Shown: in pieces, positions 7,132 to 24,521 of the stretch
How the letters are laid out: each line of letters starts with the position of its first letter
Numbering within the stretch: the first letter of the stretch is position 1
Assembly (NCBI RefSeq): GCF_022348185.1
Contig: NZ_JAKRFD010000007.1
Location: 62,001 to 126,000, forward strand
From: Epibacterium sp. Ofav1-8
GTDB lineage: Bacteria > Pseudomonadota > Alphaproteobacteria > Rhodobacterales > Rhodobacteraceae
Direction of reading: 5' to 3'
DNA: 64,000 bases
Program-made: the position numbers and the translations under genes
The notes under the pieces: generated by a model
Told to the model about the DNA's origin: nothing
Databases searched by the model: none
What the model saw: only the letters and a program-made list of their open reading frames with translations

Positions 7132-7680
7132 TCAGGATTGCGGCAGGGCGCGCGGGTCGAATTGGCACATCTCGCCCGCTTTGGCCAAGGCCTGATCCAG
7201 CCCGGAGAGGGAAAAACCACCGTAGAGCCAGGTTTCCCCTTCGGCTGCGCGATCCACCGCAAAGCCAAAGTCGCCCTTGGCGGCAAGCATGGCGCTGATC
7301 AATTCCGAGATGAAGCCCGGTGTCAGGCTCGCACCATAGGTGAAGCCCGGTGCGGTGTAGAAAAACATCTCGTCACCAAACCACACCGGCTCATCCCCCA
7401 GATAAAGCGTCACACTATCTGCTGCCTCATCCCAGGGGGCTTCGACCTCATCAGGGCCGTAAGGCGTGTAGATATAGTCGAAGGTGGCATTCAGACCGTT
7501 GTTTTCGAACGTGAACTCCAGATAGCCGGAGGTGTCGCGCGCGGAGGAGAGCGTATAGACGTGGCAGGTTTTGCCCTTGTAGACCGCCGCCCAATTGCCG
7601 GCCTCAAGGAACAGCGTCGAGGCCTGCGCGAGGCCACCCATAAGAGACAAGGCGAGCGCCGCAGCGATAGATTTCAGCAT
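7132..7680 (-). CDS. Small secreted protein of unknown function
   Basis: 182 residues. With the start at 7680 the protein begins MLKSIAAALALSLMGGLAQA, a clear Sec signal peptide with AXA-type cleavage near residue 20. An AGGA ribosome-binding site lies about 8 bases upstream; an upstream start at 7713 would bury the signal. The mature part is acidic and rich in aromatic residues, with two cysteines that could form a disulfide. I recognise no family. It is the last gene before the convergent hydrolase; the 46-bp gap holds a GGTGG-GCCC/GGGGCCACC hairpin that may end transcription from both sides. Confidence 0.7.
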   Translation of the reverse strand: MLKSIAAALALSLMGGLAQASTLFLEAGNWAAVYKGKTCHVYTLSSARDTSGYLEFTFENNGLNATFDYIYTPYGPDEVEAPWDEAADSVTLYLGDEPVWFGDEMFFYTAPGFTYGASLTPGFISELISAMLAAKGDFGFAVDRAAEGETWLYGGFSLSGLDQALAKAGEMCQFDPRALPQS

Positions 7681-7783
7681 GAAAGATGTCCTAAACAAAC
7701 GTGGTTGGCGCAAAGCTACTGCGCAATAGATGCGGAAACCTTAATGCGTTATCGCGTTTGGTGCTCGCCGGGGACACCGTGGT

Positions 7784-8260
7784 TCAGTCGTCTGTCACAT
7801 GGATCGCGAATTGCTCGAGCCCCGCGGATTGGGCTTCGATCACGCGGAAACTCTCGCGCACGCCAGCCTCGGTCAGGTCTCGCGCCACTGTCAGCAGCGT
7901 GTTGGGGGCGTGATCCTCGCAAAGCTCTGCCATATGGTCGATCTCGGCTTCGGCCACGGGGCGGGCGCTGGCCATATCCGGCGCGCCATAGATCTCCATG
8001 AAATGCCGGGCGAGCTGTTCGATCAGTGTGGTGACTTCTTCGGCCTCGATCTGGGTCACGGCGACAAATGTCACCCGACCCGCGGTCTCCAGCCCCATCC
8101 AGCCATTGGCAAAGGCCTGACGCTGCTTGCCAACAAGGTCGCCCTCGCTCCAGTTGGAGAACTCGAACCCGCCGGAAATACACCATTCCCCGGTGCGGGC
8201 GGGGCTGGCAAAGACGTTCATGTCGCTTTCGTCAAAATGAATGGCACGGGCCAGTTTCAT
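7784..8260 (-). CDS. DUF6505-like protein of the formate dehydrogenase region
   Basis: 158 residues, soluble, acidic, with no signal peptide or cysteine cluster. It starts MKLARAIHFDESDMNVF and contains GEWCISGGFEFSNW. From memory this matches a domain of unknown function (DUF6505) seen in Rhodobacterales next to formate dehydrogenase accessory genes; I could not search to confirm it. It lies 15 bp downstream of the ligase-like gene on the same strand, so it is probably the last cistron of the Mrp operon. A role in formate dehydrogenase assembly is an inference from position only. Confidence 0.6.
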   Translation of the reverse strand: MKLARAIHFDESDMNVFASPARTGEWCISGGFEFSNWSEGDLVGKQRQAFANGWMGLETAGRVTFVAVTQIEAEEVTTLIEQLARHFMEIYGAPDMASARPVAEAEIDHMAELCEDHAPNTLLTVARDLTEAGVRESFRVIEAQSAGLEQFAIHVTDD

Positions 8261-8275
8261 CGCGTCTTTCTCCTG

Positions 8276-8980
8276 TCAGTCCTGCACCAGAACAGTGGTG
8301 AGCGGGATCAGATGGGTTGTTGTGTCGTCGCGCAGGAGCATGCCGAAATCCTCATCGACGCCAAGGAAGGTACCGCTCAGCCCGGCTTGCTGGCGATCTT
8401 CGCCGATGCCATGCGCAAGCCCGCGCCATTCTGCATGAAGCGTTTTGAGTTCGCCTTCGTCCCATCGGTTGATCCAATGCAGGCAGTGGCGGGTCCAGCT
8501 TTCCAGCAGGCGCGGCGCAGCCACATCGGCGCAGCCTTCGGCATAGAGCGCGGTTTGATCCGGGGTGTCGCCCCCGTCGCCTGCAGGCCAGAGCGGCAGG
8601 TCCAAGCCCACAACCAGCCAGTCCGGCTGGGCGTCGGGCGCATCGGTACTGGCCGCGACGCGAAGGCGTCCGCATCGCGCGCCATTGATCAACAGACCAC
8701 CGTCCCAGTCCAGATGTACGGCAACTTCGGGCGGGGCGAGCGCGCCAAGGGCGTTCTGAAAGCCCAGGCCGCACACGGGCAGCATCGCCATGGCCTTGGC
8801 CAGCGGCACTTCGGGCGCGAGCACCAGTGCGGCACGCAAGATGTCAGTGCCGAGGTCATAGACGACAAGCCCCGCATCGACGCCCAGCTCGGCCTTCTGG
8901 CAGGCGAGATCAAACGGCTCCTGTCCCGGACCTGCGGCCTCGCCCGTCATCAGAGGGGGGAAGGTGACGGTATCGCTCAT
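8276..8980 (-). CDS. Biotin/lipoate-protein ligase-like protein
   Basis: 234 residues resembling the biotin/lipoate A/B ligase fold: LDWDGGLLINGARCGRLRV looks like the central sheet region that binds the acyl-adenylate, and the start FPPLMTGEAAGP suits the divergent BPL_LplA_LipB_2 subfamily. The canonical BirA GRGRxG loop is not evident, so ligase activity is uncertain. It overlaps mrp by four bases and precedes the DUF6505-like gene. Placement in an Fe-S/formate dehydrogenase accessory operon, rather than next to a carboxylase or dehydrogenase complex, suggests a specialised role. Confidence 0.65.
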   Translation of the reverse strand: MSDTVTFPPLMTGEAAGPGQEPFDLACQKAELGVDAGLVVYDLGTDILRAALVLAPEVPLAKAMAMLPVCGLGFQNALGALAPPEVAVHLDWDGGLLINGARCGRLRVAASTDAPDAQPDWLVVGLDLPLWPAGDGGDTPDQTALYAEGCADVAAPRLLESWTRHCLHWINRWDEGELKTLHAEWRGLAHGIGEDRQQAGLSGTFLGVDEDFGMLLRDDTTTHLIPLTTVLVQD

Positions 8981-10041
8981 ACGACGCCGCGCTCCACGAG
9001 GGCTGCGGCGATGTCCTGAAAGGCACGTGCCTGTGTGCTGTCGGGTTTGGAGACCACGATGGGCGCGCCGCCATCCGCCGCCAAGCGGACATCCAGATGC
9101 AAGGGCACCTCTGCCAGGAGCGGTACGTTCAGTTTCTCAGCCTCTGCCGAAACGCCGCCATGGCCAAAGATATGCTCCTCATGGCCACAGTTGGAACAGA
9201 TGTGGGTCGACATGTTTTCAATGAGGCCGAGGATCGGCACGTTCAGCTTGTGGAACATATCAATACCTTTGCGGGCATCAATCAGGGCCACATCCTGCGG
9301 GGTGGAGACCACAATCGCCCCGTCCACCTGCGCCTTTTGCGCCAGCGTCATCTGCACGTCGCCGGTGCCCGGCGGCAGGTCCACGATCAGCACATCGAGC
9401 GCGCCCCATTGCACCTGCATCATCATCTGTTGCAACGCCCCCATGAGCATCGGGCCGCGCCAGACCACGGCCTGATCGTCATTGGTCATCAGACCGATCG
9501 ACATCATGGTGACGCCGTGATTCCGCAGCGGCAGGATGGTCTTGCCGTCGGGGCTGGCCGGGCGGCCAGAGACACCCAGCATGCGCGGCTGCGAGGGGCC
9601 GTAGACATCCGCATCCAAGAGACCCACGCGTTTCCCAGCCTGCGCGAGGGCACAGGCAAGGTTGGCCGAAACGGTGGATTTCCCGACGCCGCCCTTGCCC
9701 GAGGCGACCGCGATGATCTTTGCGACGCCGGGGATCTTTTGCGGGCCTTGTGGCTCTGCGGGTTTGTTGGGTTTGAGATCCGGCGGGGCTTTGGTGCTAT
9801 GGGCCGTCATCAGGGCTGAGACTTTCTCAACACCCGCGAGGTCGCTCACCAGGGCCTCGGCCTGATCGCGCACTGGCGCGTAGGCCTCGGATTTGGCCGG
9901 GTCAATTTCCAGCACAAACCGTACATTACTGCCCTCAATGGTGAGGGCGCGGATGATGCCTGCGGCGACGATATCGCTGCCGCTCACGGGGTCTTTCAGG
10001 GTCTTCAGGGCGTCGAGGACGGCGTCGCGGGTGATGGACAC
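8977..10041 (-). CDS. mrp: Mrp/NBP35 (ApbC) family Fe-S cluster carrier ATPase
   Basis: 354-residue P-loop ATPase. An N-terminal MIP18-like domain (about 1-85) is followed by the deviant Walker A ASGKGGVGKST (about residue 112). Further motifs are DADVYGPSQPRML and VIVDLPPGTGD. Near the C-terminus CSNCG supplies the CXXC that holds a bridging [4Fe-4S] cluster in dimers of this family. It delivers Fe-S clusters to apo-proteins in the cytosol; here the adjacent poly-ferredoxin and formate dehydrogenase subunits are natural clients. It starts 107 bp downstream of the poly-ferredoxin gene and overlaps the ligase-like gene by ATGA. Confidence 0.92.
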   Translation of the reverse strand: MSITRDAVLDALKTLKDPVSGSDIVAAGIIRALTIEGSNVRFVLEIDPAKSEAYAPVRDQAEALVSDLAGVEKVSALMTAHSTKAPPDLKPNKPAEPQGPQKIPGVAKIIAVASGKGGVGKSTVSANLACALAQAGKRVGLLDADVYGPSQPRMLGVSGRPASPDGKTILPLRNHGVTMMSIGLMTNDDQAVVWRGPMLMGALQQMMMQVQWGALDVLIVDLPPGTGDVQMTLAQKAQVDGAIVVSTPQDVALIDARKGIDMFHKLNVPILGLIENMSTHICSNCGHEEHIFGHGGVSAEAEKLNVPLLAEVPLHLDVRLAADGGAPIVVSKPDSTQARAFQDIAAALVERGVV

Positions 10042-10148
10042 GCGGGTCTACTCCTTGGTTGGTCTGGTGGTTGGCCTGGTCAGGTCACGCGGCTGCATGG
10101 TGCCTGCTGCGCGCGCGGGTTTAAAGGGCTCAGTGGCGCAAGTTTGCG

Positions 10149-12107
10149 TCAATGGTCGCGCCGCGTGCTGAGATAATCCTCAGTGGTGCGCACGCGGGGA
10201 CGTTCCTTGCCCGCAAAGGGGGAATCCTTTTGGTGGAATTGCGCGTTCACGCGGCAGTCATCGCACATCTGGATCATCCTGGCGGCATCCGGATTGGCAA
10301 ACATCGCATGATTGCCCGCAAGCTTTTCCATGATCCGCTCGACGGTGGATTTGACCCCAAAGAGGCTGCCACATTCGATGCAGGCAAAGGGCTCTTCTTC
10401 ATTCAGAACCACCTGATCCAGCGCCGAGGCGGCAAGGTTCAGGCGCGGCTCATAGGTGATGGCATCCTCCGGGCAGACAGTGGCGCAAAGACCGCATTGC
10501 AGGCAGGCATCTTCTTGAAAGCGCAGCTGCGGCAGGTCCGGGTTGTCCCCCAACGCCCCCGACGGGCAGAGCGACACGCAGGACAGGCACAGGGTACAGG
10601 CATCCTGATCGACCAGTACCGCGCCATAGGGCGCACCCTCTGGCAGCGGCAATTCTGTGTCAGCGGCGTTCAGGGCCAAGGCGGCCTGTCGGGTGATCTG
10701 GCGGCGGGTGCCCATGGGGCGCTGGACCGTCGCGGGGGCTGCGGGCAGATCGCGGGTCTCGTAGAGTGCATCACACAGCGCCTCGGGCTCTGCCGCGTGC
10801 AGCAGGCGCGCGGCATCAGCGGAAATCGCATTGGCCAGATCAACCTCACGCGTTTGAACCTCAAGATCGGCGCGCGGCCCGGGCAGCAGGCAGACCTCGC
10901 GGAACCCAGCGGCACGCGCCGCGAGGATTTCTGCATGGCCAAAGGTGTTGAAGGCCTCGACCTCCAGCGGAATGACGCTTGCGGGGAGGCCACGGTCAAA
11001 CCGCGCGGCGAGGCGGATCATCTCGGCACCATGGGCGTCCACCACCAGCAGCCGGGGCGTATCGCCGCCCGCCGCCAGGTAGGCCTTGGCGAGGGTTTGA
11101 ACACGCAGAAACAGGCTCTCGGCCGGGGGCGCATCATAGGTGATGGCGCTGGACGGGCAGAGCGAAGCACAGGCGCCGCAGCCTGCGCAAATCATCGGAT
11201 CAATGGCAACGCTGTCGCCATTGGGCGTGATCGCACCGGTGGGGCAGGCATCCAGGCAGCGGGTGCATCCGGTCTGACGCGCGCGGGAATGGGCGCAAAG
11301 CAGCGGCTCCGCCTTCACGTAGAGCGGTTTTTCAAAAGTGCCGACCATCTGGCTGGCGGCCAGCACCGCGTCCGCCACCGCAACCGGCGATTTCGGGTCT
11401 GCGCGCAGGTAGCCTTCGCGTTTCTCGGGGGCCGGGAACAGGGGGGCGTCACCGCGCAGGTCGAGGATGATATCGCACGCGGAGCGGCCTGCGTCGCGGG
11501 GCGCGCTCCACGTCCAGTCACGCCCGGTGACGTCAAGCGATTGCAGCGCGTCCACCGTCACCTCGAAACTGCCAAGCGCCCCGCGCGCGCTGCGCAGCTG
11601 CCCTCGGATTGCGTCGAACCCGCGGCTGAGCGGCGGCGCGGCGTCATCGGTCAGCAGGACCGTAACACCAAGGATATCCTGTAGCTTCTCGGCGGCAGGC
11701 AGCGCCACATCCGCAGTTCCGACGATCAGGCACAGACCTTCGCTGATCACATCGACGCTCTTGGCGGGGCGGATATCCAGCTGCGCCTCGGCCACCAAGG
11801 CGGACATTTTGGGTAGTACATCGCCTGCAGTCTGCGCCTCTTGGGACCATCCGGCCCGGTCCCGCAGGTCGAGGAACCGGGGGGCCTCCCGACCCAATTC
11901 CTCAGCCAGGGCGGTGAAAAAGCGGCTTTCCTGGCCGCAACAAAAAATTGCATCCGGGTCCTGAAGGGCTGCGACTGCGGCATCGGTTTGGGTTGTGCAG
12001 AGGCTGGAATGCACCTTTGAACACGGCAGCCCCGAGGCGGCGCTAAGCGCCTCTGAATCGAGCGGCTGTGATCCGGAACAATCACACAATATCAACTGCT
12101 TGGGCAT
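10149..12107 (-). CDS. Multi-cluster 4Fe-4S binding protein (poly-ferredoxin)
   Basis: 652 residues, cytoplasmic. Two paired ferredoxin modules are visible. The first (about 270-325) has CTRCLDACPTGAI and CAGCGACASLCPSSAI; the second lies about 180 residues on with CTLCLSCVSLCPSGAL and CLQCGLCATVCPEDAI. That predicts four [4Fe-4S] clusters. Extra pairs include FCCGQ, CIECGS and CDDCR, and the N-terminus (LILCDCSGSQ) resembles the start of HdrA-like proteins. The ATG at 12107 was chosen over 12176 because AGCGAGG precedes it. Divergent from the formate dehydrogenase operon, it could pass electrons between a cytosolic donor and that system; partners are unknown. Confidence 0.8.
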   Translation of the reverse strand: MPKQLILCDCSGSQPLDSEALSAASGLPCSKVHSSLCTTQTDAAVAALQDPDAIFCCGQESRFFTALAEELGREAPRFLDLRDRAGWSQEAQTAGDVLPKMSALVAEAQLDIRPAKSVDVISEGLCLIVGTADVALPAAEKLQDILGVTVLLTDDAAPPLSRGFDAIRGQLRSARGALGSFEVTVDALQSLDVTGRDWTWSAPRDAGRSACDIILDLRGDAPLFPAPEKREGYLRADPKSPVAVADAVLAASQMVGTFEKPLYVKAEPLLCAHSRARQTGCTRCLDACPTGAITPNGDSVAIDPMICAGCGACASLCPSSAITYDAPPAESLFLRVQTLAKAYLAAGGDTPRLLVVDAHGAEMIRLAARFDRGLPASVIPLEVEAFNTFGHAEILAARAAGFREVCLLPGPRADLEVQTREVDLANAISADAARLLHAAEPEALCDALYETRDLPAAPATVQRPMGTRRQITRQAALALNAADTELPLPEGAPYGAVLVDQDACTLCLSCVSLCPSGALGDNPDLPQLRFQEDACLQCGLCATVCPEDAITYEPRLNLAASALDQVVLNEEEPFACIECGSLFGVKSTVERIMEKLAGNHAMFANPDAARMIQMCDDCRVNAQFHQKDSPFAGKERPRVRTTEDYLSTRRDH

Positions 12108-12444
12108 GTTTTCCTCGCTGGCGGTCAGGCTGGCATTCAGGGCTCTGCGCTGGGTCTTGAGGTATACCCTAGGCATGTTTTTGCCAGAACGTAAACCGCC
12201 GCGGAGACGCGGTTTCTGGCTGCGTCGACCACGTTCTGCGGGGTGATTCGCCGAGCGATCAGAAAAACTGAATGCCTGATAAAAAAACTAGAAATAGACA
12301 ATTCGTCCGCTTCGGCGGGTTGCTCTGCGATGGCGCCGCCAAATTGTCCAGTGATGGCCAAAATCCGGGCAGGTGGTGAACTGCTCGCTTTTGTCCACGG
12401 TGTGGTTTGCGGCAAGCTTACGCAACAAAAGTCAGGGATGGGTC
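12108..12444. promoter_or_regulatory. Divergent spacer of the two formate-region operons
   Basis: 337 bp without a convincing gene, between the start of the poly-ferredoxin gene (left) and of the DUF3305 gene (right). It must hold promoters for both operons. The part around 12265-12305 is AT-rich compared with its surroundings (run of seven A). A bulged inverted repeat, GCCAGAA/ACCGC against GCGGTT/TCTGGC at 12183-12220, lies in the leader on the poly-ferredoxin side. I see no clear FNR box or sigma-54 (GG-N10-GC) element. Confidence 0.5.
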
Positions 12445-13008
12445 GTGGACCAGAACTACGCAAAGATGGACGTGATGCCGCTTGGGGTCGTGATCCGGCG
12501 CACGCCGGGGGTGACACCCTGGGCGCGTTGGGCGTGGCGTGTGGTGGCGGTGCTGCCCGGAGCCGCTGATGCCGACTGGAGCCTGATGCGCGAGGAAGGC
12601 GAGGCCTGCGAGTTTCACGCAGCCACGCTGCCGCTCGAATTGCACCGCGCCGATGCCGAGGCCTACATGCAGGGTCTCACGGCCAGTCCGCCGAGTATCT
12701 ACGTGGTGATGCGACCGGGGCCGGATGCCCGCCCGTCGGTGACGCTGGTCACGGCCTCGCCGTTTGAGGCGCAGGATTATGCCGACACCGGCGAGGACCA
12801 GGTCGAGAAGGTCGAGATGCCTGCGGGTCTGGTGGCATGGGTGCGCGACTTCACCCTCGCGCATTTCAAGGAAGAAGAGTTCAAGAAGCGCCGTCGTGAC
12901 CGCCAGCGCGTGGATCTGGAAGAGGACGGCGTGGGCGATGCGCGCATTCCGCAACTGACGGATGTGTATCGCGCCCCGGCCAAGGCCCGGAAGGAGCGCC
13001 TGCAATGA
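12445..13008 (+). CDS. DUF3305 domain protein
   Basis: 187 residues from a GTG at 12445, chosen because AGGGA lies six bases before it; an ATG at 12466 is the main alternative and leaves MDVMPLGVVIRRTPG. The conserved core (MPLGVVIRRTPGVTPWARWAW) is the DUF3305 signature as I know it. This family is found almost only next to formate dehydrogenase genes of alpha- and betaproteobacteria and has no known activity. It is soluble and without cysteine pairs. It overlaps the DUF3306 gene by four bases and opens the formate dehydrogenase operon. Confidence 0.82.
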   Translation: MDQNYAKMDVMPLGVVIRRTPGVTPWARWAWRVVAVLPGAADADWSLMREEGEACEFHAATLPLELHRADAEAYMQGLTASPPSIYVVMRPGPDARPSVTLVTASPFEAQDYADTGEDQVEKVEMPAGLVAWVRDFTLAHFKEEEFKKRRRDRQRVDLEEDGVGDARIPQLTDVYRAPAKARKERLQ

Positions 13009-13655
13009 GTGCGCAGGATTTCTGGTCCCGCCGTCGCGCCGCGGTTGAGGCGGAAGAGGCGCAGGAAGCCCGCGCGCTCGAGGAAGCCGAAGCGCAGGCG
13101 CGGGACGCTGAACTGGCAGAGCGCAGCGATGCAGAGCTTCTCGCCGAGTTGGATCTGCCGGACCCCGATACGCTGGGGCCGGGGGATGATTTCAAGGCTT
13201 TTCTCACCGAAGCCGTTCCCGCACGTCTCAAGACACGCGCGTTGCGTCGGCTCTGGGTCACCAACCCGGTTCTGGCAAATGTCGACGGGCTGATCGACTA
13301 TGGTGAGGATTTCACAGATGCGGCGATGGCGGTGAAAAACATCCAGACCGCCTATCAGGTCGGCAAAGGCATGACCGCCCATGTGGAAGAGCTGGCCCGT
13401 CAGGCAGAGCGTGAAGCTGCAGCACAAGACGCCGATGACGTGGCACCGGACGTTGCAGCCTCTGATGTGCATGAGGACACCATCGCGTTGGAGGACGCAG
13501 CGGATGCAGATCCTGCGCCGGACGCCTCTGCCGAGGTCGCAACGGTGCAAACCGATGAGTCGGCGCACAGCGATGTGCAGGTCGAAGATACCCCGCCACA
13601 GGTGACATCGCGCCGAATGCGCTTTGTCTTTGAGGATGCGGAGGCAACAATATGA
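13005..13655 (+). CDS. DUF3306 domain protein
   Basis: 216 residues. The N-terminus FWSRRRAAVEAEE followed by a charged coiled-coil-like stretch, then FLTEAVPARLKTRALRRLW and YGEDFTDAAMAV, matches DUF3306, the usual partner of DUF3305 in formate dehydrogenase loci. The last 80 residues are low-complexity Ala/Asp/Glu and probably disordered. No signal or membrane segment is seen. It is coupled by ATGA overlaps to DUF3305 upstream and to the TorD-like gene downstream. A role in formate dehydrogenase assembly is inferred from conserved position. Confidence 0.82.
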   Translation: MSAQDFWSRRRAAVEAEEAQEARALEEAEAQARDAELAERSDAELLAELDLPDPDTLGPGDDFKAFLTEAVPARLKTRALRRLWVTNPVLANVDGLIDYGEDFTDAAMAVKNIQTAYQVGKGMTAHVEELARQAEREAAAQDADDVAPDVAASDVHEDTIALEDAADADPAPDASAEVATVQTDESAHSDVQVEDTPPQVTSRRMRFVFEDAEATI

Positions 13656-14278
13656 CACAGGAGAGCCCGATGACAGACGCCGCCGTGACCACAGAGCGGG
13701 TCAGCGAAGAAGATCGGCTGCGCGCGGATCTCTACAACTACCTTGGCCTGATGCTGGCCGCGCCGCCGAGCGAGATGCTGCTGGAACAGACGGCTGGGCT
13801 CTCCGGGGATGAGACGCCGCTGGGGCAGGCGATCACCCAACTGGCACGGGTGGCCAAACGCACCAAACCCGCCGGAGCCGAACGCGAGTTCAACGCGCTG
13901 TTCATCGGTCTGGGTCGGGGGGAGTTGCTGCCCTATGCGAGCTATTACCTCACTGGTTTCCTGAATGAGAAACCGCTGGCAGCGCTGCGCAAGGACATGA
14001 GCGCGCGGGGCCTGAGCCGCGCGCCCAATGTGTTTGAACCCGAAGACAACATTGCCTCCCTGATGGAGATGATGGGGGCGATGATCGTGGGCCGGTTTGG
14101 TGCCGCCACACCGCTGGCGGAGCAGAAAACCTTTTTCAACAAGCACATCGGCCCTTGGGCTGCGCATTTCTTTGCCGACCTCGAGGGCGCAAAGAACTCG
14201 GTGCTGTATGCCTCGGTCGGCGCGGTGGGGCGGGCCTTTATGGAGATTGAGGCTGAAGGATTTCGGATGGGGGGCTGA
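13652..14278 (+). CDS. TorD-like molecular chaperone for formate dehydrogenase
   Basis: 208 residues, all-helical, of the TorD/DmsD/NarJ family. The start (EEDRLRADLYNYLGLMLAAPP), the EFNALFIGLGRGELLPYASYY block and HIGPWAAHFFADLEGA are characteristic. These cytosolic chaperones bind the Tat signal of a molybdo- or tungsto-enzyme and hold back export until the cofactor is in place. The client here is almost certainly the Tat-signalled alpha subunit encoded 400 bp downstream, perhaps also the small Tat protein between them. It overlaps DUF3306 by four bases. Confidence 0.88.
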   Translation: MTQESPMTDAAVTTERVSEEDRLRADLYNYLGLMLAAPPSEMLLEQTAGLSGDETPLGQAITQLARVAKRTKPAGAEREFNALFIGLGRGELLPYASYYLTGFLNEKPLAALRKDMSARGLSRAPNVFEPEDNIASLMEMMGAMIVGRFGAATPLAEQKTFFNKHIGPWAAHFFADLEGAKNSVLYASVGAVGRAFMEIEAEGFRMGG

Positions 14279-14383
14279 GCTCTCTGATCCATGACGATGC
14301 GCCCGCAGGAGGCAGGTGCAGGGCAGGGCGGCCCGGACGCCCGAACGACTGGACCTGAAGACCAAAAGAGGAGGAGGATCCAC

Positions 14384-14572
14384 ATGTCACGGAAAGAGGA
14401 TGGCGCAAGCCGCCGCGACTTTCTGAAACTGGCTGCAACCACCACGCCCGCAGCGGCGGTGGCCCTTGCAACCACCGGAGGCGAGGCCGAGGCCGCAACC
14501 CCGGATCTGTCATCGAACAAGATGCAGGATACCGCGCATACCCGCGCCTATTACGACAGCACCCGGTTCTGA
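14384..14572 (+). CDS. Small Tat-signal protein of formate dehydrogenase loci
   Basis: 62 residues from the ATG at 14384, preceded by GAGGAGG. Nearly half is a twin-arginine signal, ASRRDFLKLAATTTPAAAVA, leaving only about 25 mature residues ending in TRAYYDSTRF. It fits the 'formate dehydrogenase region TAT target' family. Function is unknown; it may be a bound partner of the alpha subunit exported by piggy-back, or a small structural subunit. The 113 bp to fdhA hold no further gene. Confidence 0.82.
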   Translation: MSRKEDGASRRDFLKLAATTTPAAAVALATTGGEAEAATPDLSSNKMQDTAHTRAYYDSTRF

Positions 14573-14685: not shown

Positions 14686-17580
14686 ATGCTTAGGAAAAAG
14701 ACCAACGGGGTAGCGCGACGCCCCCAGCGGACCAGTATCCTGTCCAAGGTTGGCGACACAGCCGTCGACCGCCGCGCGTTCCTGCGCGGATCTGGCCTCG
14801 CCATCGGCGGGCTTGCGGCGATCAGCGCCACCGGCGGAACGGTGACGCAGGCCAATGCCGCGGCCTCTGCGACTGGTGAGGTTGAAATCATCAAATCCGT
14901 CTGCACCCACTGCTCTGTCGGCTGCACGGTCCTGGCAGAAGTGCAGGATGGTGTCTGGACCGGTCAGGAGCCGGGTTGGGACAGCCCCTTCAATCTCGGG
15001 TCGCACTGCGCCAAGGGCGCATCGGTGCGCGAGCACGCCCACGGCGAGCGCCGCCTGAAGTACCCGATGAAGAAAGAAGGCGGTGAGTGGAAGCGCATCA
15101 GCTGGGAACAGGCCATCGACGAGATCGGCGACCAGATGATGTCGATCCGCGATGAAAGCGGCCCCGACAGCGTCTATTGGCTCGGCTCGGCCAAGCACAA
15201 CAACGAACAGGCCTACCTGTTCCGCAAGTTCGCCGCCTACTGGGGCACCAACAACGTGGATCACCAGGCGCGGATCTGTCACTCCACCACGGTTGCGGGT
15301 GTTGCCAACACATGGGGCTACGGCGCCATGACCAACAGCTACAACGACATCCATAACTCCAAGGCGATCTTCATCATCGGCGGCAACCCGGCGGAGGCGC
15401 ATCCCGTCTCGCTGTTGCATGTGCTGAAGGCCAAGGAGCAAAACAACGCGCCGCTGATCGTGTGTGACCCGCGTTTTACCCGCACGGCGGCCCATGCGGA
15501 CGAGTATGTGCGCTTCCGTCCCGGCACCGACGTGGCGCTGGTCTGGGGGATCCTGTGGCACATCTTTGAAAACGGCTGGGAGGACAAGGAGTTCATCCGC
15601 ACCCGTGTCTGGGGTATGGACCAGATCCGCACCGAAGTGGCCAAATGGACACCCGAAGAGGTCGAGCGCGTGACCGGCACCCCGGGTAGCCAGCTCAAGC
15701 GCGTGGCGCGGACCCTGGTGAACAACCGTCCCGGCACCGTGATCTGGTGTATGGGCGGCACCCAGCACACCAACGGCAACAACAACACCCGCGCCTACTG
15801 CATCCTGCAGCTTGCACTGGGCAACATGGGCACCTCCGGCGGCGGCACCAACATCTTCCGCGGTCACGACAACGTGCAGGGGGCAACCGACCTTGGCGTT
15901 CTGAGCCACACGCTGCCGGGCTATTATGGTCTGTCGGCTGGCGCATGGGGCCACTGGGGCCGCGTCTGGGGCGAAGACATGGACTGGCTCAAGGGGCAGT
16001 TCGAAACCGTCAAATCCGCCGACGGCAAGGACAAGAACCTGATGAACCTGACGGGCATTCCGGTGTCCCGCTGGATCGATGGGATCCTTGAGGACAAGGA
16101 GAACATGGATCAGCCCAACAATGTGCGGGCCATGGTTCTCTGGGGCCACGCGCCGAACTCTCAGACCCGGATGACGGAGATGAAGACGGCGATGGAAAAA
16201 CTCGACATGCTGGTCGTGGTGGACCCCTATCCGACCGTCTCTGCCGTGCTGCATGACCGCACCGATGGCGTCTACCTGCTGCCCGCCTGTACTCAGTTTG
16301 AGACACGTGGCTCGGTCACGGCGTCGAACCGGTCGCTGCAGTGGCGCGACAAGGTGGTGGACCCGCTGTTCGAGAGCCTGCCGGATCACGTGATCATGGC
16401 CAAGTTCGCCAATAAGTTCGGCTGGGCAGATCGTCTCTTCCGCAATATCGAGATGGAAGACGCCGAGACCCCCAACATCGAGAGCATCACCCGCGAGTTC
16501 AATGCGGGCATGTGGACGGTGGGCTATACGGGTCAAAGCCCGGAGCGTATCAAACTCCATATGGCGAACCAGCACACGTTTGACCGCACCACGCTTCAGG
16601 CCGTTGGTGGCCCGGCGGATGGCGATTACTACGGGATGCCCTGGCCCTGCTGGGGCACACCGGAGATGAAGCATCCGGGCACGCCGAACCTTTATGATAT
16701 GTCCAAACCGGTGGCCGAAGGTGGCCTGTGTTTCCGCGCCCGTTTCGGGGTGGAACGCGATGGTGACAATCTGCTGGCCGAGGGGGTCTCGAACCCCGGT
16801 GCGGAAATTCAGGACGGCTATCCTGAGTTCACCATGCAGATGCTCATGGATCTGGGCTGGGACGGCGACCTGACGGACGAGGAACGCGCGGCGATCGATG
16901 CGGTTGCTGGTCCGTCGACCAACTGGAAAACCGACCTCTCCGGCGGGATCCAGCGGGTTGCGATCAAGCATGGCTGCGCCCCGTTTGGCAACGCCAAGGC
17001 CCGTGCCGTGGTGTGGACCTTCCCGGATCCGGTGCCGCTGCACCGCGAGCCGCTCTACACCAACCGGCGGGATCTGGTGGCGGATTATCCGACCTATGAG
17101 GATCGGAAATTCTACCGTCTGCCCACTATGTATGCCTCGATCCAGAAGAACGACGTCTCCAAGGAGTATCCGATCATCCTCACCTCCGGTCGTCTGGTCG
17201 AATATGAGGGCGGCGGGGATGAGACCCGTTCGAACCCATGGCTTGCGGAATTGCAGCAGGACATGTTCGTCGAGATCCACCCGCGCGATGCCAATGACAT
17301 CGGCGTGCGGGATGGGGCTCAGGTCTGGGTCGAAGGCCCGGAAGGCGGCAAGGTCAAGGTGATGGCCATGGTGACAGAACGGGTGGGTGAGGGCGTTGCC
17401 TTCATGCCGTTCCACTTTGGCGGGCACTTCCAAGGTAAGGACCTGCGGGAGAAATATCCCGATGGTGCGGACCCCTATGTGCTGGGCGAAAGCACCAACA
17501 CCGCGCAGACATATGGCTATGACTCGGTCACTCAGATGCAAGAGACCAAAGCCACCCTCTGCAAAATCATGCCAGCGTAA
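14686..17580 (+). CDS. fdhA: Formate dehydrogenase alpha (catalytic) subunit, Cys type
   Basis: 964 residues. A Tat signal (DRRAFLRGSGLAIGG, about 28-42) predicts an active site facing the periplasm. Cys73, Cys76, Cys80 (CTHCSVGC) and Cys108 bind the [4Fe-4S] cluster. The residue that is selenocysteine in E. coli FdnG is a normal TGT Cys198 here (ARICHSTTVAG), followed by the conserved WGYGAMTNSYNDI region. A molydopterin-dinucleotide-binding domain fills the C-terminus. It oxidises formate to CO2 and passes electrons to the beta subunit. GGGAGG precedes the ATG. The mobA/fdhD-type cofactor genes are not in this window. Confidence 0.95.
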   Translation: MLRKKTNGVARRPQRTSILSKVGDTAVDRRAFLRGSGLAIGGLAAISATGGTVTQANAAASATGEVEIIKSVCTHCSVGCTVLAEVQDGVWTGQEPGWDSPFNLGSHCAKGASVREHAHGERRLKYPMKKEGGEWKRISWEQAIDEIGDQMMSIRDESGPDSVYWLGSAKHNNEQAYLFRKFAAYWGTNNVDHQARICHSTTVAGVANTWGYGAMTNSYNDIHNSKAIFIIGGNPAEAHPVSLLHVLKAKEQNNAPLIVCDPRFTRTAAHADEYVRFRPGTDVALVWGILWHIFENGWEDKEFIRTRVWGMDQIRTEVAKWTPEEVERVTGTPGSQLKRVARTLVNNRPGTVIWCMGGTQHTNGNNNTRAYCILQLALGNMGTSGGGTNIFRGHDNVQGATDLGVLSHTLPGYYGLSAGAWGHWGRVWGEDMDWLKGQFETVKSADGKDKNLMNLTGIPVSRWIDGILEDKENMDQPNNVRAMVLWGHAPNSQTRMTEMKTAMEKLDMLVVVDPYPTVSAVLHDRTDGVYLLPACTQFETRGSVTASNRSLQWRDKVVDPLFESLPDHVIMAKFANKFGWADRLFRNIEMEDAETPNIESITREFNAGMWTVGYTGQSPERIKLHMANQHTFDRTTLQAVGGPADGDYYGMPWPCWGTPEMKHPGTPNLYDMSKPVAEGGLCFRARFGVERDGDNLLAEGVSNPGAEIQDGYPEFTMQMLMDLGWDGDLTDEERAAIDAVAGPSTNWKTDLSGGIQRVAIKHGCAPFGNAKARAVVWTFPDPVPLHREPLYTNRRDLVADYPTYEDRKFYRLPTMYASIQKNDVSKEYPIILTSGRLVEYEGGGDETRSNPWLAELQQDMFVEIHPRDANDIGVRDGAQVWVEGPEGGKVKVMAMVTERVGEGVAFMPFHFGGHFQGKDLREKYPDGADPYVLGESTNTAQTYGYDSVTQMQETKATLCKIMPA

Positions 17581-17592
17581 GGAGACGGACAT

Positions 17593-18186
17593 ATGGCACG
17601 AGCTAAATTCCTGTGCGACGCCGAACGCTGCATCGAGTGCAACGCCTGCGTCACCGCTTGTAAGAACGAGCACGAAGTCCCTTGGGGTATCAACCGTCGC
17701 CGTGTTGTGACCATCAATGATGGCAAGCCCGGCGAGCGGTCGATCTCTGTCGCCTGTATGCATTGTTCCGATGCACCCTGCATGGCGGTCTGCCCGGTGG
17801 ACTGTTTCTATCAGACCGAGGACGGGGTGGTTCTGCACTCCAAGGACCTCTGCATCGGCTGTGGCTACTGCTTCTACGCCTGTCCCTTTGGGGCACCGCA
17901 GTATCCGCAGGCGGGCAACTTCGGCTCTCGCGGCAAGATGGACAAATGTACCTTCTGCGCCGGTGGTCCTGAGGAAAACAACTCTCAGGCCGAGTTCCAG
18001 AAGTACGGGCGCAACCGGATCGCAGAAGGCAAATTGCCGATCTGCGCCGAGATGTGCTCCACCAAAGCGCTGTTGGCCGGCGATGGCGACACAGTCTCCG
18101 CTGTCTACCGCGAGCGTGTGGTGGCCCGTGGCTTTGGCTCCGGCGCCTGGGGCTGGGGAACCGCTTACGATCAAAAGGGCGGCTGA
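17593..18186 (+). CDS. fdh3B: Formate dehydrogenase beta subunit (FDH3 type), 4Fe-4S protein
   Basis: 197 residues with four ferredoxin-type cysteine groups: CIECNACVTACK (from residue 13), CMHCSDAPCMAVCP, CIGCGYCFYACP and CTFC with a distant CAEMC. Four [4Fe-4S] clusters are predicted, giving an electron wire between FdhA and the cytochrome b subunit. It is shorter than E. coli FdnH (about 290 residues) and lacks its C-terminal membrane helix, as in the compact FDH3 type. It starts 12 bp after fdhA with an AAGGAG box. No signal peptide is seen, so export is presumably with FdhA. Confidence 0.93.
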   Translation: MARAKFLCDAERCIECNACVTACKNEHEVPWGINRRRVVTINDGKPGERSISVACMHCSDAPCMAVCPVDCFYQTEDGVVLHSKDLCIGCGYCFYACPFGAPQYPQAGNFGSRGKMDKCTFCAGGPEENNSQAEFQKYGRNRIAEGKLPICAEMCSTKALLAGDGDTVSAVYRERVVARGFGSGAWGWGTAYDQKGG

Positions 18187-18222
18187 CGCCCACTTTTGAT
18201 CCCAATACGCCTACTATGAGGC

Positions 18223-18243
18223 GGCCCGCCATTGTGGCGGGCC
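18223..18243 (+). other. Hairpin between fdh3B and the gamma-subunit gene
   Basis: A perfect 8-bp stem (GGCCCGCC / GGCGGGCC, loop ATTGT) lies about 36 bases after the beta-subunit stop in the 113-bp gap. No T-run follows, so full termination is unlikely. It may protect the alpha-beta message or lower expression of the gamma subunit. Confidence 0.4.
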
Positions 18244-18299
18244 CCTCCTTCTATGCGCACGTTTCCTTTCTCAAATCCGGCTCAACGGGAGGTCCATCC

Positions 18300-19520
18300 A
18301 TGCCGCGCCTGATTTTCGTATTCGTCCTTAAACTGGCCCTGCTCTGCGGCCTGTCTGCCCATGCGCAGGACGCACCCCCCGTGGCAGTGGCACCTGATCG
18401 TTCCGCCACCGGTGGGGCGCAGACACTGGAGGACATTCTCGCGCGGCAACGTGGCGAGGCGCTGGACGACAGTTTCCGCAGCGATGCGACGGGTGATCCT
18501 GACAGCGCCGCTGGGATTGCACAGCAGCTGGGCACCCTGGGTGGCCAGTCCGATCCCGAACTCTGGCGGGCGTTGCGCTACAACTCCGCCGATATTCGCG
18601 TCTCTGCCGGGGGCGATGTGGCCACGGTTCTGGTGCAGGACGGCGGTATGAACTGGCTGTCCGTCCGGGCGGGCCCGTTGCGGCAATATGGTGGCTGGCT
18701 CCTGCTGGGCACGATTGCCGCGCTGGCGGTGTTCTTCCTGCTGCGGGGCCGTATCCGTGTCGACGGGGAAAAGACCGGGCGCACGGTGACCCGTTTTGCC
18801 TTTGTCGAGCGGATGACCCACTGGACCCTTGCCGGATCTTTCATCCTGCTTGGTCTGACCGGGCTTCTGACGCTCTTTGGTCGGGTGGCGATCCAGCCAT
18901 ATCTGGGCAAGGACGTGAATTCGGTGCTGCTCATCGGCTCCAAATGGATTCACAATTCCGTCTCTTGGGCCTTCATGCTGGCGCTCATTTTGGTGTTTGT
19001 CATGTGGGTTGCGCATAACATCCCGAACAAGCTGGATCTGGTCTGGATCAAGCAGTTCGGTGGCATCATCGGCAAGAAACACCCCCCCGCAAAGAAGTTC
19101 AACGCCGGTCAAAAGGTGATTTTCTGGTCGGTCATCCTGTTCGGGGCCTCGATCTCCGTCTCCGGCCTGTCGCTGCTGTTCCCGTTTGAACTGCCGCTCT
19201 TTGCCAAGACCTTTGCCATTCTCAATGACACCGGCATCCCGCAGTGGCTTGGCTACGGCGTCTTGCCCACCGAGCTTGCCCCGCAAGAGGAGATGCAGCT
19301 TGCCCAGCTCTGGCACGCGATCGTCGCCTTTGTGCTGATGGCGATCATCATCGCGCATATCTACATCGGCACGCTTGGCATGGAAGGCGCTTATGACGCC
19401 ATGGGCTCTGGCGAGGTGGATGAGGCCTGGGCGCATCAGCACCACTCGATCTGGCTCGAGGAAGTGCAGAAGAAAGAGAGCGCCAAGGCTGAAAACACAG
19501 GCGCCACCCCGGCGGAGTGA
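18300..19520 (+). CDS. fdhC: Formate dehydrogenase gamma subunit, cytochrome b556 with N-terminal extension
   Basis: 406 residues from the ATG at 18300, preceded by GGGAGG and beginning with a Sec signal (about 1-22). A periplasmic region of about 110 residues precedes five hydrophobic segments (about 131-148, 175-193, 218-238, 273-295, 338-357). His174, His218, His339 and His353 are candidates for two b-hemes. Compared with E. coli FdnI (about 217 residues) the long N-terminal domain is extra, as in many FDH3 clusters. It should anchor the complex and pass electrons either to quinone or to the c-type cytochrome encoded next. Confidence 0.9.
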   Translation: MPRLIFVFVLKLALLCGLSAHAQDAPPVAVAPDRSATGGAQTLEDILARQRGEALDDSFRSDATGDPDSAAGIAQQLGTLGGQSDPELWRALRYNSADIRVSAGGDVATVLVQDGGMNWLSVRAGPLRQYGGWLLLGTIAALAVFFLLRGRIRVDGEKTGRTVTRFAFVERMTHWTLAGSFILLGLTGLLTLFGRVAIQPYLGKDVNSVLLIGSKWIHNSVSWAFMLALILVFVMWVAHNIPNKLDLVWIKQFGGIIGKKHPPAKKFNAGQKVIFWSVILFGASISVSGLSLLFPFELPLFAKTFAILNDTGIPQWLGYGVLPTELAPQEEMQLAQLWHAIVAFVLMAIIIAHIYIGTLGMEGAYDAMGSGEVDEAWAHQHHSIWLEEVQKKESAKAENTGATPAE

Positions 19521-19524
19521 CGTG

Positions 19525-20811
19525 ATGCGGCGACTGGCGCTAAGCCTTGCGCTCTGTGCTGCGCCCGTCTGGGGCGCGGGGGCAGAGGAATTCGTGACCC
19601 TCAAAGGACACGGCGGGCCGATCATGGCGCTTGCCGTGGATGATGCGGATCGCGTGGCCAGCGCCAGTTTCGACAATACCGCTGCCATTTGGCAGGGAGG
19701 CAGCGCTACGTGGTTGGAGGCCCATGACGCGGCCACCACCGCAGTGACCTTTGGCCCGCGCGGGGCGCTGTTCAGCGGTGGTGATGATTTTGCGATCTAT
19801 CGCTGGCAGCAGGGACAGCCGCAGCACATCGGGCGTCATGCGGGCAAGATCCGCGCGCTGGATGTCTCGTCGGATGGGGCGTTTCTGGCCTCAGCCAGTT
19901 GGGACGGCACCATCGGTCTTTGGTCGCTGAACGGCGGTGCCGGGCAGCAGATCAAGGTGGGCGCAGGTGTCAACGATGTGCGCTTTGATGCCCAAGGGCG
20001 CCTGTTCGCCGCGACCATGGCCGGGCAGGTGCATGTCTATGACACGCTCGACGCCACCCCCCGGCTGTTGGCCGAACAGGGGTTTGGCATCAACCGTCTG
20101 GTGCTGTCGCAAGAGGGCTGGCTTGCCTATGGCGCGGTGGATGGCGGCACCCGGGTGATCGACATGGAAACCGGCGCGCAGATTGCCGATTTCACCCTCG
20201 ACCGCCGCCCGATCCTCGCCTTGGCCTATCATGCGCAAAGCCAGCAGATCGCGGTTGGCGACGGTCATGGCTACATCATGATGATCGATACCCGCAATTG
20301 GACCATTGCCCGCGATTTCAGGGCGATGCGCGAGGGGCCGGTCTGGGCATTGGCGTTTTCGCGCGATGGCAGCCGCATCTGGGCCGGGGGCATTCACGAT
20401 GTGATCTATGGCTGGCCCATTGCGCTGATGGACAGCCATCAGGCCGCAGGAAACGAGACACGCAGTTTTCTGCAAGCCCCCGAAACCATGAGCAACGGCG
20501 AGCGCCAGTTCATGCGCAAATGCTCCATCTGTCACGATTTGAACGATGCCGGGCAGCGCCGGGCCGGGCCGCATCTGGCAGGTCTGTTCGGGCGCGCGGC
20601 GGGCAGCCTGCCGGGCTACCGCTATTCCCGGACATTGCTGCAATCCGACCTGATCTGGACGGACGAGACCATTGATGCCCTGTTCGACCAAGGGCCTGAC
20701 CACTATATTCCGGGGTCCAAGATGCCGATGCAACGCATCACCGCCCCCACGGATCGCCAGGATCTGATAGACTATCTGAAAACCGCGACAAAACTTCCGG
20801 AGGACGACTGA
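19525..20811 (+). CDS. Secreted WD40 beta-propeller fused to a class I cytochrome c
   Basis: 428 residues from the ATG at 19525; an upstream in-frame start would extend back into fdhC. Residues 1-19 are a Sec signal. Residues 25-300 hold repeated WD40 blades (FVTLKGHGGPIMALAVDD, ASASFDNTAAIW, ASASWDGTIGLW, GPVWALAFSRDGS). The last 110 residues are a small cytochrome c: heme motif CSICH at 333-337, AGPHLAGLFGR, and a Met ligand near GSKMPM (about 400). It lies four bases after the gamma gene, so it probably accepts electrons from, or scaffolds, the periplasmic side of the formate dehydrogenase. Confidence 0.87.
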   Translation: MRRLALSLALCAAPVWGAGAEEFVTLKGHGGPIMALAVDDADRVASASFDNTAAIWQGGSATWLEAHDAATTAVTFGPRGALFSGGDDFAIYRWQQGQPQHIGRHAGKIRALDVSSDGAFLASASWDGTIGLWSLNGGAGQQIKVGAGVNDVRFDAQGRLFAATMAGQVHVYDTLDATPRLLAEQGFGINRLVLSQEGWLAYGAVDGGTRVIDMETGAQIADFTLDRRPILALAYHAQSQQIAVGDGHGYIMMIDTRNWTIARDFRAMREGPVWALAFSRDGSRIWAGGIHDVIYGWPIALMDSHQAAGNETRSFLQAPETMSNGERQFMRKCSICHDLNDAGQRRAGPHLAGLFGRAAGSLPGYRYSRTLLQSDLIWTDETIDALFDQGPDHYIPGSKMPMQRITAPTDRQDLIDYLKTATKLPEDD

Positions 20812-20946: not shown

Positions 20947-22299
20947 ATGAACGTCTCCGCCACCATCCGCGACGAATACTCAGAATCGCTGTCGTCCGCA
21001 TCGATCCTCGTGATTGATGACGAACCCGGCATGCGTCACTTCATGACCAAGATCCTGGAACCTCGCTGCAAACGCGTGGAACAGGCAGCCTCCGCGGCAG
21101 ACGCCTCTGATATTCTCGACAAGGCCCATTTCGACCTGATCGTGCTGGATAACATCATGCCGGGGAAAACCGGGCTGGACTGGGTGGCTGAACAGCGCCG
21201 GGTGGGGCTGTTTGCCGACACTATTCTGGTGACCGCCTATGCGGATCTCGATACGGCCATTCAGGCGCTCAGGATCGGGATTGCGGATTTTGTGCTCAAA
21301 CCCTTTCGCGCCAATCAGATCCTCAACGCGGTAGCGCGCGCCCTCGACCGCAAGTATCTGCGGCGGGAAAATTACCTGCTGAAACACGAGCTTTCAGCCG
21401 AGCAATCCGGCGCGCGTGGCCGCCTTTTGGGCAAATCCGCCGCCATCGAAAAGGTGCGCCAGATGTTGCAGCGGTTGGCCCCCTTGCCGACGCCGGTGCT
21501 GTTTACCGGCGCGTCTGGTACGGGCAAGGAAATCGCCGCCCGCACGTTGCATTCGCTCTCGGATCGGGCGGAAAAACCCTTTGTCGCCGTGAACTGTGCC
21601 AGCCTGTCGCCGGAGCGGCTGGCGGAAGAGCTGTTCGGGGTGATCGAGGAGCACGAGCGTCGGCGCGACGGTCTGTTTCTGCATGCAGATGGCGGCACAT
21701 TGTTCCTCGACGAGGTCGCGCAGATGCCGGAACAGGTGCAGGCGGCGCTGCTGCGGGTGCTCGAAGATCAGAAAGTACGCCCCGTGGGGGCAGAGCGCGA
21801 CATCCCGTTGAATCTGCGCTTTTTCTTTGCCACCAACATGGATTTGCAGCAAGCAGTGGCGGAGGGGCGCTTTCGCGCGGATCTCTACCACCGCATCAAT
21901 GTCGTCAATATCGAGATGCCACCGCTGAAGGAGCGGGTCGAGGATATCGTCGAACTGGCCGCGCAATTCATGGAGCAGTTCTCGCTCAGTCTGGGCATGC
22001 CGGCGCTTGAAATGGACGAAGAGACTCTGTTGAAATTTGCCCGATACGACTGGCCGGGCAATGTGCGGGAACTGCGCAACCTGATCGAACGTTCGGTGAT
22101 CCTGGGCGCGTTTCCAGAGGCCTTTTCCGGTACCGGCTCGGTGACGGGCGTGGCTGCGGTCGAGAATCTGGATCTGGTGATGCAGCGCCATATCATGCAT
22201 GTGCTTGACGCCTGCGATGGCAACCGTGCCGAGGCGGCGCGCCGGCTCGGGGTGTCCCGCAAGACCATCGACCGCAAATGTGCCAGCTGGGGCGTCTGA
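20947..22299 (+). CDS. NtrC-family response regulator without the GAFTGA loop
   Basis: 450 residues. The receiver domain (about 18-135) has acidic pocket Asp24/Asp25 and phospho-acceptor Asp68 (LIVLDNIMPG). The AAA+ domain has Walker A GASGTGKE and Walker B GGTLFLDEV, with the arginine-finger region FRADLYHRIN. A Fis-type helix-turn-helix (NRAEAARRLGVSRKTIDRK) ends it. Between ELFG and the DGLF segment only about ten residues occur and the sigma-54-contacting GAFTGA loop is absent. It lies eight bases after the formate dehydrogenase genes, so it is likely co-transcribed with them and pairs with the convergent kinase. Confidence 0.9.
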   Translation: MNVSATIRDEYSESLSSASILVIDDEPGMRHFMTKILEPRCKRVEQAASAADASDILDKAHFDLIVLDNIMPGKTGLDWVAEQRRVGLFADTILVTAYADLDTAIQALRIGIADFVLKPFRANQILNAVARALDRKYLRRENYLLKHELSAEQSGARGRLLGKSAAIEKVRQMLQRLAPLPTPVLFTGASGTGKEIAARTLHSLSDRAEKPFVAVNCASLSPERLAEELFGVIEEHERRRDGLFLHADGGTLFLDEVAQMPEQVQAALLRVLEDQKVRPVGAERDIPLNLRFFFATNMDLQQAVAEGRFRADLYHRINVVNIEMPPLKERVEDIVELAAQFMEQFSLSLGMPALEMDEETLLKFARYDWPGNVRELRNLIERSVILGAFPEAFSGTGSVTGVAAVENLDLVMQRHIMHVLDACDGNRAEAARRLGVSRKTIDRKCASWGV

Positions 22300-22340
22300 T
22301 CCGGGGTCGCGCGGGCTGATCCCGGGGATGCATGCGCGCA

Positions 22341-24341: not shown

Positions 24342-24521
24342 GTCTGGCGTCCTCCCTCCTGGCGCCGGAATAGGGGCATGTCTGCCGCCCAATGTCGCCG
24401 GTTCTCGATCCGGGTGCAAGGTCCCAGACAGTGGGCAATTGGTATGACCTGCAATTGCAGCACGCCGTCGGAGGGGTGATCACGGGCGGGGGAATGCGCG
24501 CTGGCGGCACGTCGCCGCCGC

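Follow-up and report, generated by a model that had tools for sequence, protein, structure and literature searches.

What is the task of a four-gene operon that stands back to back with the genes of a formate dehydrogenase? The question is raised by a stretch of 64,000 nucleotides from Epibacterium sp. Ofav1-8 (contig NZ_JAKRFD010000007.1, positions 62,001 to 126,000; source genome 4.76 Mb), here termed the window. In it, genes for a polyferredoxin, an Mrp/ApbC-type Fe-S carrier ATPase, a biotin-protein-ligase-like protein and a DUF6505 protein stand together as a leftward unit. It diverges from the operon of an FDH3-type formate dehydrogenase, with which it shares one intergenic region. A sequence-only reading had described this arrangement, and Pfam and NCBIfam matches at 7784-12107 confirm it (Table 1). 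The spacing of the unit is operon-like, with a 107-nt gap between polyferredoxin and Mrp, a 4-nt overlap between Mrp and the ligase-like gene and a 15-nt gap before DUF6505, and purine-rich stretches resembling Shine-Dalgarno sequences stand ahead of the polyferredoxin, Mrp and DUF6505 starts at least. By their distribution, the four genes are coupled to FDH3. The leftward operon is probably a cytosolic maturation module for the facing FDH3, an enzyme exported by twin-arginine translocation (Tat) and possibly using tungsten.

The coupling is evident from 219 Pseudomonadota genomes, in which each family was searched across the same set. Genomes were counted as FDH3-positive (36) or FDH3-negative (183) by the presence of an FDH3 beta subunit above its curated cut-off; the weakest pass scored 314.7 bits and the next match 99.5. 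DUF3305 occurs in 36 of the 36 positive and none of the 183 negative genomes, and the polyferredoxin, at a threshold of E<=1e-30 fixed beforehand, in 36/36 and 1/183 (genome G186). DUF6505 was found in 20 positive genomes, the full-length ligase-like protein in 19 (at >150 bits, a threshold chosen after a gap between 165.4 and 95.9 bits became visible) and DUF6352 in 13, each against 0/183 negative genomes. Co-occurrence with FDH3 is strict for these five families and was not shown for Mrp, while DUF6494 (11/36 versus 2/183) is tied to FDH3 only loosely. The sequence-only reading had staked its proposal on such co-occurrence, and the association proved near-perfect and FDH3-specific.

Contrasts within families give the same picture. 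Among the 14 genomes of the window's own family, all 7 FDH3-positive ones carry DUF6505 and none of the 7 FDH3-negative ones does; the corresponding values are 3/3 and 0/6 in family f2 and 4/5 and 0/1 in family f8, where the exception, G111, has a different FDH3 gene order. Moreover, co-occurrence outlasts linkage. In G016, hundreds of kb separate DUF6505 and DUF6352 from DUF3305 and the formate dehydrogenase genes, the polyferredoxin is about 31 kb away from these, and DUF6352 is unlinked from FDH3 in G019, G175 and G194; because these four genomes keep unlinked partners, linkage alone does not explain the co-occurrence. G016 was also considered as a carrier of the ligase-like gene and rejected, its match being a canonical BirA at 95.9 bits.

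Additional evidence comes from gene order in named loci, which are the best 80 of 554 ligase-like matches among species-representative genomes; being selected by the ligase-like gene, they show synteny rather than co-occurrence. Their titles name Rhodobacterales (the order, which we take from the genus names) plus one metagenome-assembled genome labelled Alphaproteobacteria alone. Mrp stands beside the ligase-like gene in 80/80 of these loci, and the polyferredoxin is found in 79, DUF6505 in 79 and the formate dehydrogenase alpha gene in 76. The row is incomplete at five loci (L116, L131, L172, L176 and L178), all of which have their match near a contig end. Since the same row recurs across these loci, its arrangement is not due to chance. 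Two further families appear in rows of this kind. DUF6352 follows DUF6505 in other alphaproteobacterial families (L068, 7255-8262, and relatives), and the small DUF6494 protein (L201, 12044-12235; L200, 4507-4713) occurs at 50 of 81 loci, comprising the window and the best 80 named, and is missing from the window's genome.

How the module might act can be outlined from the features of the enzyme. The alpha subunit carries a DRRAFL string, which we take to be its Tat motif, and a Cys198-His pair, presumably the Cys/Sec-His active site. Given the Tat signal, the subunit has to be loaded with pterin cofactor and Fe-S clusters in the cytosol and only then exported. A Tat motif and a clear membrane segment are missing from all four leftward proteins (the polyferredoxin has one borderline hydrophobic window), which are therefore taken to be cytosolic and to encounter the enzyme before it is exported. 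During loading, the polyferredoxin and the Mrp paralogue may provide Fe-S clusters, reduce them or maintain the proper redox state. The ligase-like protein and DUF6505 could form a non-catalytic binding or scaffold pair on apo-formate dehydrogenase or its cofactor, acting alongside DUF3305, DUF3306 and TorD. In the simplest model, an assembly line would lead from tungstate or molybdate uptake, through synthesis of the bis-molybdopterin guanine dinucleotide (bis-MGD) cofactor, to a dedicated loading team and release to Tat. DUF3305, DUF3306, TorD and the polyferredoxin would make up this team, with Mrp in some families; the alphaproteobacterial version would add the pseudo-ligase and DUF6505, together with DUF6352 in families other than the window's. 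We infer the maturation role, the step of each protein and the metal. Maturation of FDH3 by these proteins would provide a testable function for DUF6505, DUF6352, DUF3305, DUF3306 and the DUF4444 ligase-like family (structure 3bfm), and would connect a formate dehydrogenase found in Alphaproteobacteria and other Pseudomonadota with genes for tungstate uptake. The genes that probably have to be moved together for making FDH3 in another host are now named.

Dedicated maturation proteins of molybdoenzymes are already known and include the FdhD, FdhE, NarJ and TorD types (PMC10609526, available part). In E. coli, FdhD sulfurates and carries the bis-pterin cofactor, and FdhE is required for the periplasmic enzymes; like the proposed module, both are dedicated accessory proteins of formate dehydrogenase (PMC10609526, available part), although by Pfam their families are unrelated to those of the window. 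The right-hand operon of the window is of the same type as the dmsD-fdhGHI operons, which adjoin DUF3305/DUF3306 and a fer4 gene in the available part of a published description, where, however, DUF6505, Mrp and the ligase-like gene are not named (PMC4464133). A literature search that left subscription papers and preprints mostly outside gave no paper that apparently tied formate dehydrogenase to DUF6505, DUF6352, DUF6494 or the ligase-like family, and no occurrence of the names DUF6505, DUF4444, DUF6352 or DUF6494. The name BPL_LplA_LipB_2 does occur in a paper on Wolbachia (PMC10621080), and DUF3306 in another paper (PMC7160927).

Companion genes (FdhD, MoeA or Mog-like, a MobA fusion and TupA-like) point to cofactor assembly. 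FdhD is present in 14/15 non-alphaproteobacterial clusters, within the 19-19.5 kb fetched. Among survey loci with a ligase-like gene, FdhD was found in 3/19 (all of family f42), and among the best 80 of the 554 named loci in 0/80; in such genomes, as in G111 and G016, whose searched loci also lack it, FdhD may sit elsewhere. Replacement of FdhD by the ligase-like gene was considered as a strict rule and not upheld, as the three f42 clusters carry both. MoeA or Mog-like genes are found at a minority of loci. The DUF3305 protein itself partially matches (69.4 bits, cut-off 820) the C-terminal, DUF3305 end of the MobA-DUF3305 fusion model NF011058.

The metal is hinted at by tungstate-binding proteins of the TupA type, which at a threshold of E<=1e-35, fixed beforehand, occur in 36/36 FDH3-positive versus 6/183 FDH3-negative genomes. 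Of the positive genomes, 18 have the TupA-like gene no more than 20 kb from a cluster gene (counting G016, where it is near the polyferredoxin), 10 have it farther away on the same contig and 8 on a different one; in the window's genome it is on a different contig (G000:C11:87838-88620, L202). AOR, the classical tungsten enzyme, was rejected as the reason for TupA in most of the genomes scanned, AFOR_N being found in 2 of these 27 FDH3-positive genomes (27 of 36). The distribution suggests that FDH3 can use tungsten. A comparable case is FDH1 of Methylorubrum extorquens, which is soluble. Tungsten maturation of that enzyme involves MoeA1, MobB and FdhD, with tupBCA, and its metal-specific assembly genes are likewise clustered with a tungstate transporter; FDH1 differs in being a heterodimeric alpha-beta enzyme (PMC13197769, available part). 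A term search of the same paper returned no FDH3, Mrp, lipoate or DUF.

Several observations weigh against the maturation reading. Co-occurrence is evidence of coupling, not of a role in assembly. The surveyed genomes are related and simple p-values overstate their independence, and for this reason the within-family contrasts weigh more. DUF6505 is absent from 16/36 and the ligase-like gene from 17/36 FDH3-positive genomes, so neither is needed for FDH3 generally; both are missing from G111, an FDH3-positive alphaproteobacterium, and in G016 DUF6505 is present but the ligase-like gene is not. MoeA accompanies the two cluster types about equally often (4/19 versus 3/15). No TupA-like match exceeds the strict NCBIfam cut-off, and in M. 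extorquens formate dehydrogenases other than FDH1 are active on molybdate, which weighs against obligate tungsten use, although that report does not name FDH3 (PMC13197769).

The weakest link of the four genes is Mrp, as 24/36 FDH3-positive genomes have one Mrp only and 12/183 FDH3-negative genomes have more than one. The window's Mrp passes the ApbC equivalog model NF008669 (352.9 bits, cut-off 348) and has a NUBPL-type P-loop ATPase domain, a DUF59 domain and a CSNC motif at residue 282, presumably the C-terminal CXXC that binds a bridging cluster. A second, cluster-linked Mrp is found in 7/7 FDH3-positive genomes of the window's family, and 6/7 FDH3-negative genomes there have one Mrp. A tree of 41 Mrp rows, for which the tool issued a long-branch warning, groups the linked copies of the window's family with those of f42 (94/87), apart from the general copies of the window's family (99/97); support is weak for a group of the window-family linked copies by themselves (84/48), and the cluster Mrp of G174 and G185 (f8) has a separate origin. 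In seven single-Mrp genomes, the gene lies near the FDH3 cluster (at 96 bases in G175, 116 in G204 and 4.5-16.8 kb in five more), an impression rather than a test, as the seven were picked by eye. The interpretation given by the sequence-only reading is partly supported: its dedicated maturation module stands as the best reading, from gene association, but Mrp is not generally tied to FDH3.

The polyferredoxin could alternatively serve electron transfer, as a wire between FDH3 and a cytosolic pathway. Its 16 cysteines in two ferredoxin-like motif pairs make four [4Fe-4S] sites, the number estimated from sequence earlier. With C271 counted, 15 of the 16 cysteines at these sites are kept in 37/37 homologues, and C310 is kept in 21/21 alphaproteobacterial and f42 rows and 6/16 others; a C-terminal CX2C...CX2C site (C576, C579, C615 and C618) is kept in 37/37. 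The seven best Foldseek matches of its AlphaFold2 (AF2) model (pLDDT 83.3) are HdrA chains (E 1.9e-11 to 5.1e-9, probability 1.00, about 750 columns), but the superposition is poor (whole-chain TM about 0.2, root-mean-square deviation 27-31 A). In sequence searches the best match is not HdrA but FwdF, the polyferredoxin of another enzyme (9.4e-20), followed by HdrA at 5.8e-12 (HMMER, HdrA residues 543-650), an alignment that covers the two-cluster HdrA ferredoxin domain. These sequence matches support HdrA or FwdF likeness for the ferredoxin parts of the polyferredoxin only. The flavin-type GxGxxG/A of its Rossmann-like segment is present in 5/41 homologues and absent from the window protein. 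Clusters and matches of this kind favour a wire. Against it speak the poor conservation of the flavin motif and the fact that the alpha subunit has a Tat motif and gamma is a membrane cytochrome b, while the polyferredoxin lacks a Tat motif and has at most one borderline hydrophobic window. Furthermore, electron transfer leaves the linkage with DUF3305, TorD, FdhD and TupA unexplained. It is an unlikely explanation, and the electron-input module that the sequence-only reading had offered beside maturation is disfavoured, given the Tat motif of alpha and its lack, together with that of any clear membrane segment, in the four proteins.

The one FDH3-negative genome with a polyferredoxin homologue, G186 (L094), has it beside a weakly TorD-like open reading frame (71 bits with our own profile; no NCBIfam match). 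The best named model for a nearby molybdopterin oxidoreductase is ArrA, far under its cut-off. This locus hints that the polyferredoxin family serves molybdoenzymes beyond formate.

The ligase-like protein, 97% identical to its Tritonibacter mobilis counterpart, is homologous to the BPL/LplA/LipB ligases. It matches PF16917 (2.1e-75) and, as a very close homologue, PDB 3bfm (E=9.6e-146; deposited as biotin protein ligase-like, function unknown), and a 13-member profile of the family finds BirA in the PDB at 6e-7 to 1.7e-6. Canonical ligases have a GRGRxGRxW string, which we take to be the adenylate-binding loop, and a Lys after WPND...NG, presumably catalytic. In an alignment of 99 homologues (19 from the survey and the best 80 of 554 named), the loop is missing from 99/99; each has one residue in the ten loop columns, and the loss appears as a 15-column gap against one canonical ligase. 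A GRG[RK] string occurs somewhere in two sequences, L063 (an open reading frame over-extended at its start) and L109, neither with the loop. In the catalytic-Lys column, R is the commonest residue (46 sequences), followed by S (24), A (12), L (6), V, K and T (3 each) and E and D (1 each); the window protein has Arg, and Lys is found in 0/19 survey and 3/80 named sequences. In contrast to BirA, then, the family has lost the adenylate loop and does not conserve the catalytic Lys, and on sequence grounds the protein appears to be a pseudoenzyme. This supports the earlier suggestion that a ligase fold had been turned to a new purpose, for which a check of the catalytic Lys and adenylate pocket, here made by alignment, had been advised.

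A more specific version of the maturation reading is possible, with this dead biotin ligase reused, together with DUF6505, as a cofactor chaperone that places the cofactor in FDH3 ahead of export by Tat; we consider it doubtful. Equally tentative is the idea that the former biotinyl-AMP pocket would hold tungsten- or molybdenum-bis-MGD by its nucleotide end, or else apo-formate dehydrogenase, in clusters that are mostly without FdhD. For DUF6505, five AF2 models (pLDDT 54.6-72.8) gave no PDB match at E<=0.001.

Regulation is a less probable alternative still, in which the pseudo-ligase or DUF6505 would sense formate, metal or cofactor and control the formate dehydrogenase operon. BirA-fold proteins can be regulators, and the two operons diverge across one intergenic region. 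However, Pfam shows no DNA-binding domain in the pseudo-ligase or DUF6505, and DUF6505 is kept with FDH3 even where unlinked (G016). A promoter and terminator scan of 7600-12500 gave no excess over shuffles; sigma-54-type sites (40 observed, 41.1 expected) and FNR-type sites (3 observed, 4.3 expected) include none within the shared intergenic region.

Genomic hitch-hiking, by which the genes would merely accompany FDH3 on plasmids or islands and have no effect on the enzyme, is improbable. The module is indeed plasmid-borne in Sinorhizobium meliloti (pB) and on a 60.5-kb Tateyamaria plasmid, but co-occurrence survives loss of linkage in G016, G019, G175 and G194, and the module recurs in divergent families with its order rearranged. 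Among the evidence for the maturation reading is a maximum-likelihood tree of 37 formate dehydrogenase alpha proteins; with DUF6505 labelled by cluster (the second FDH3 copy of G174 counted as lacking it), DUF6505 presence requires 2 changes on it versus a shuffled mean of 12.7. The three f42 members, which belong to another class, group with the window's family (100/99) to the exclusion of other alphaproteobacterial FDH3 (99/98), and in the f42 clusters Mrp, the ligase-like gene and DUF6505 follow the gene order of the window. This pattern suggests that the module was transferred as a unit. The four genes are not one evolutionary block: the polyferredoxin accompanies every surveyed FDH3, and DUF6505 and the ligase-like gene mark the alphaproteobacterial type and f42.

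The least probable alternative, and a very unlikely one, is a true ligase that would transfer biotin, lipoate or some other acyl group onto an acceptor belonging to the formate system: the Pfam family name, the BirA profile matches (6e-7 to 1.7e-6), the public annotation as biotin/lipoate ligase and the Lys of 3/99 homologues speak for it, and an active ligase is rejected on the loop missing from 99/99 and the R, S, A, L, V, T, E or D that fills the catalytic column in 96/99. The earlier remark that no lipoyl or biotinyl domain is nearby agrees with a motif regex, used alone, over window open reading frames of more than 150 codons; its three AMKI/AMKL matches, one of them the DUF6505 start, are not convincing.

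Table 1. Genes of the leftward unit and of the facing FDH3 operon, with positions in the window
Feature	Position	Strand	Evidence and remarks
DUF6505 protein, 158 residues	7784..8260	-	PF20115 9e-81
Biotin-protein-ligase-like protein with C-terminal DUF4444, 234 residues	8276..8980	-	BPL_LplA_LipB_2 PF16917 2.1e-75; PF14563
Mrp/ApbC-type Fe-S carrier ATPase, FDH3-linked paralogue, 354 residues	8977..10041	-	PF10609 7.7e-102; PF01883 3.2e-18
Polyferredoxin, 652 residues, HdrA-like parts	10149..12107	-	Fer4 1.5e-21
DUF3305 protein	12466..13008	+	PF11749 1.2e-44; reading frame open from 12373, start 12466 inferred from domain onset
DUF3306 protein	13005..13655	+	PF11748 1.9e-18
TorD/NarJ-like chaperone	13652..14278	+	PF02613 3.9e-30
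Small Tat-signal protein of formate dehydrogenase operons	14291..14572	+	TIGR02811 39.4 bits (cut-off 48.45, not reached); SRRDFL motif
Formate dehydrogenase alpha, Cys-type, Tat motif	14686..17580	+	PF00384 1.5e-50; DRRAFL; Cys198-His within RICHST
FDH3 beta subunit	17593..18186	+	NF038355 347.1 bits, cut-off 240
Formate dehydrogenase gamma, cytochrome b (true start probably further in)	18183..19520	+	TIGR01583 146.5 bits, cut-off 115.85
WD40 propeller with cytochrome c	19516..20811	+	PF00400, PF00034

The alpha subunit scores 477.3 bits against TIGR01591, under the cut-off of 666.25. The WD40-cytochrome c gene lies directly after gamma, and other FDH3 clusters also hold homologues (13 of the 40 loci L059-L098); its product is a possible periplasmic electron partner of FDH3. 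Further 3' of the formate dehydrogenase operon, the region 20947-24419 encodes a sigma-54-type response regulator, and a large open reading frame on the opposite strand resembles a sensor histidine kinase by eye. At the plasmid locus L201, a protein with a CGRCH haem motif (11255-11986; no Pfam or NCBIfam match) is encoded between DUF3305 and DUF6494/Mrp. Homologues of this protein occur at 52 of the 81 loci formed by the window and the best 80 of 554 named, none of them in the window; by eye, the N-terminal part of the protein looks like a solute-binding protein.

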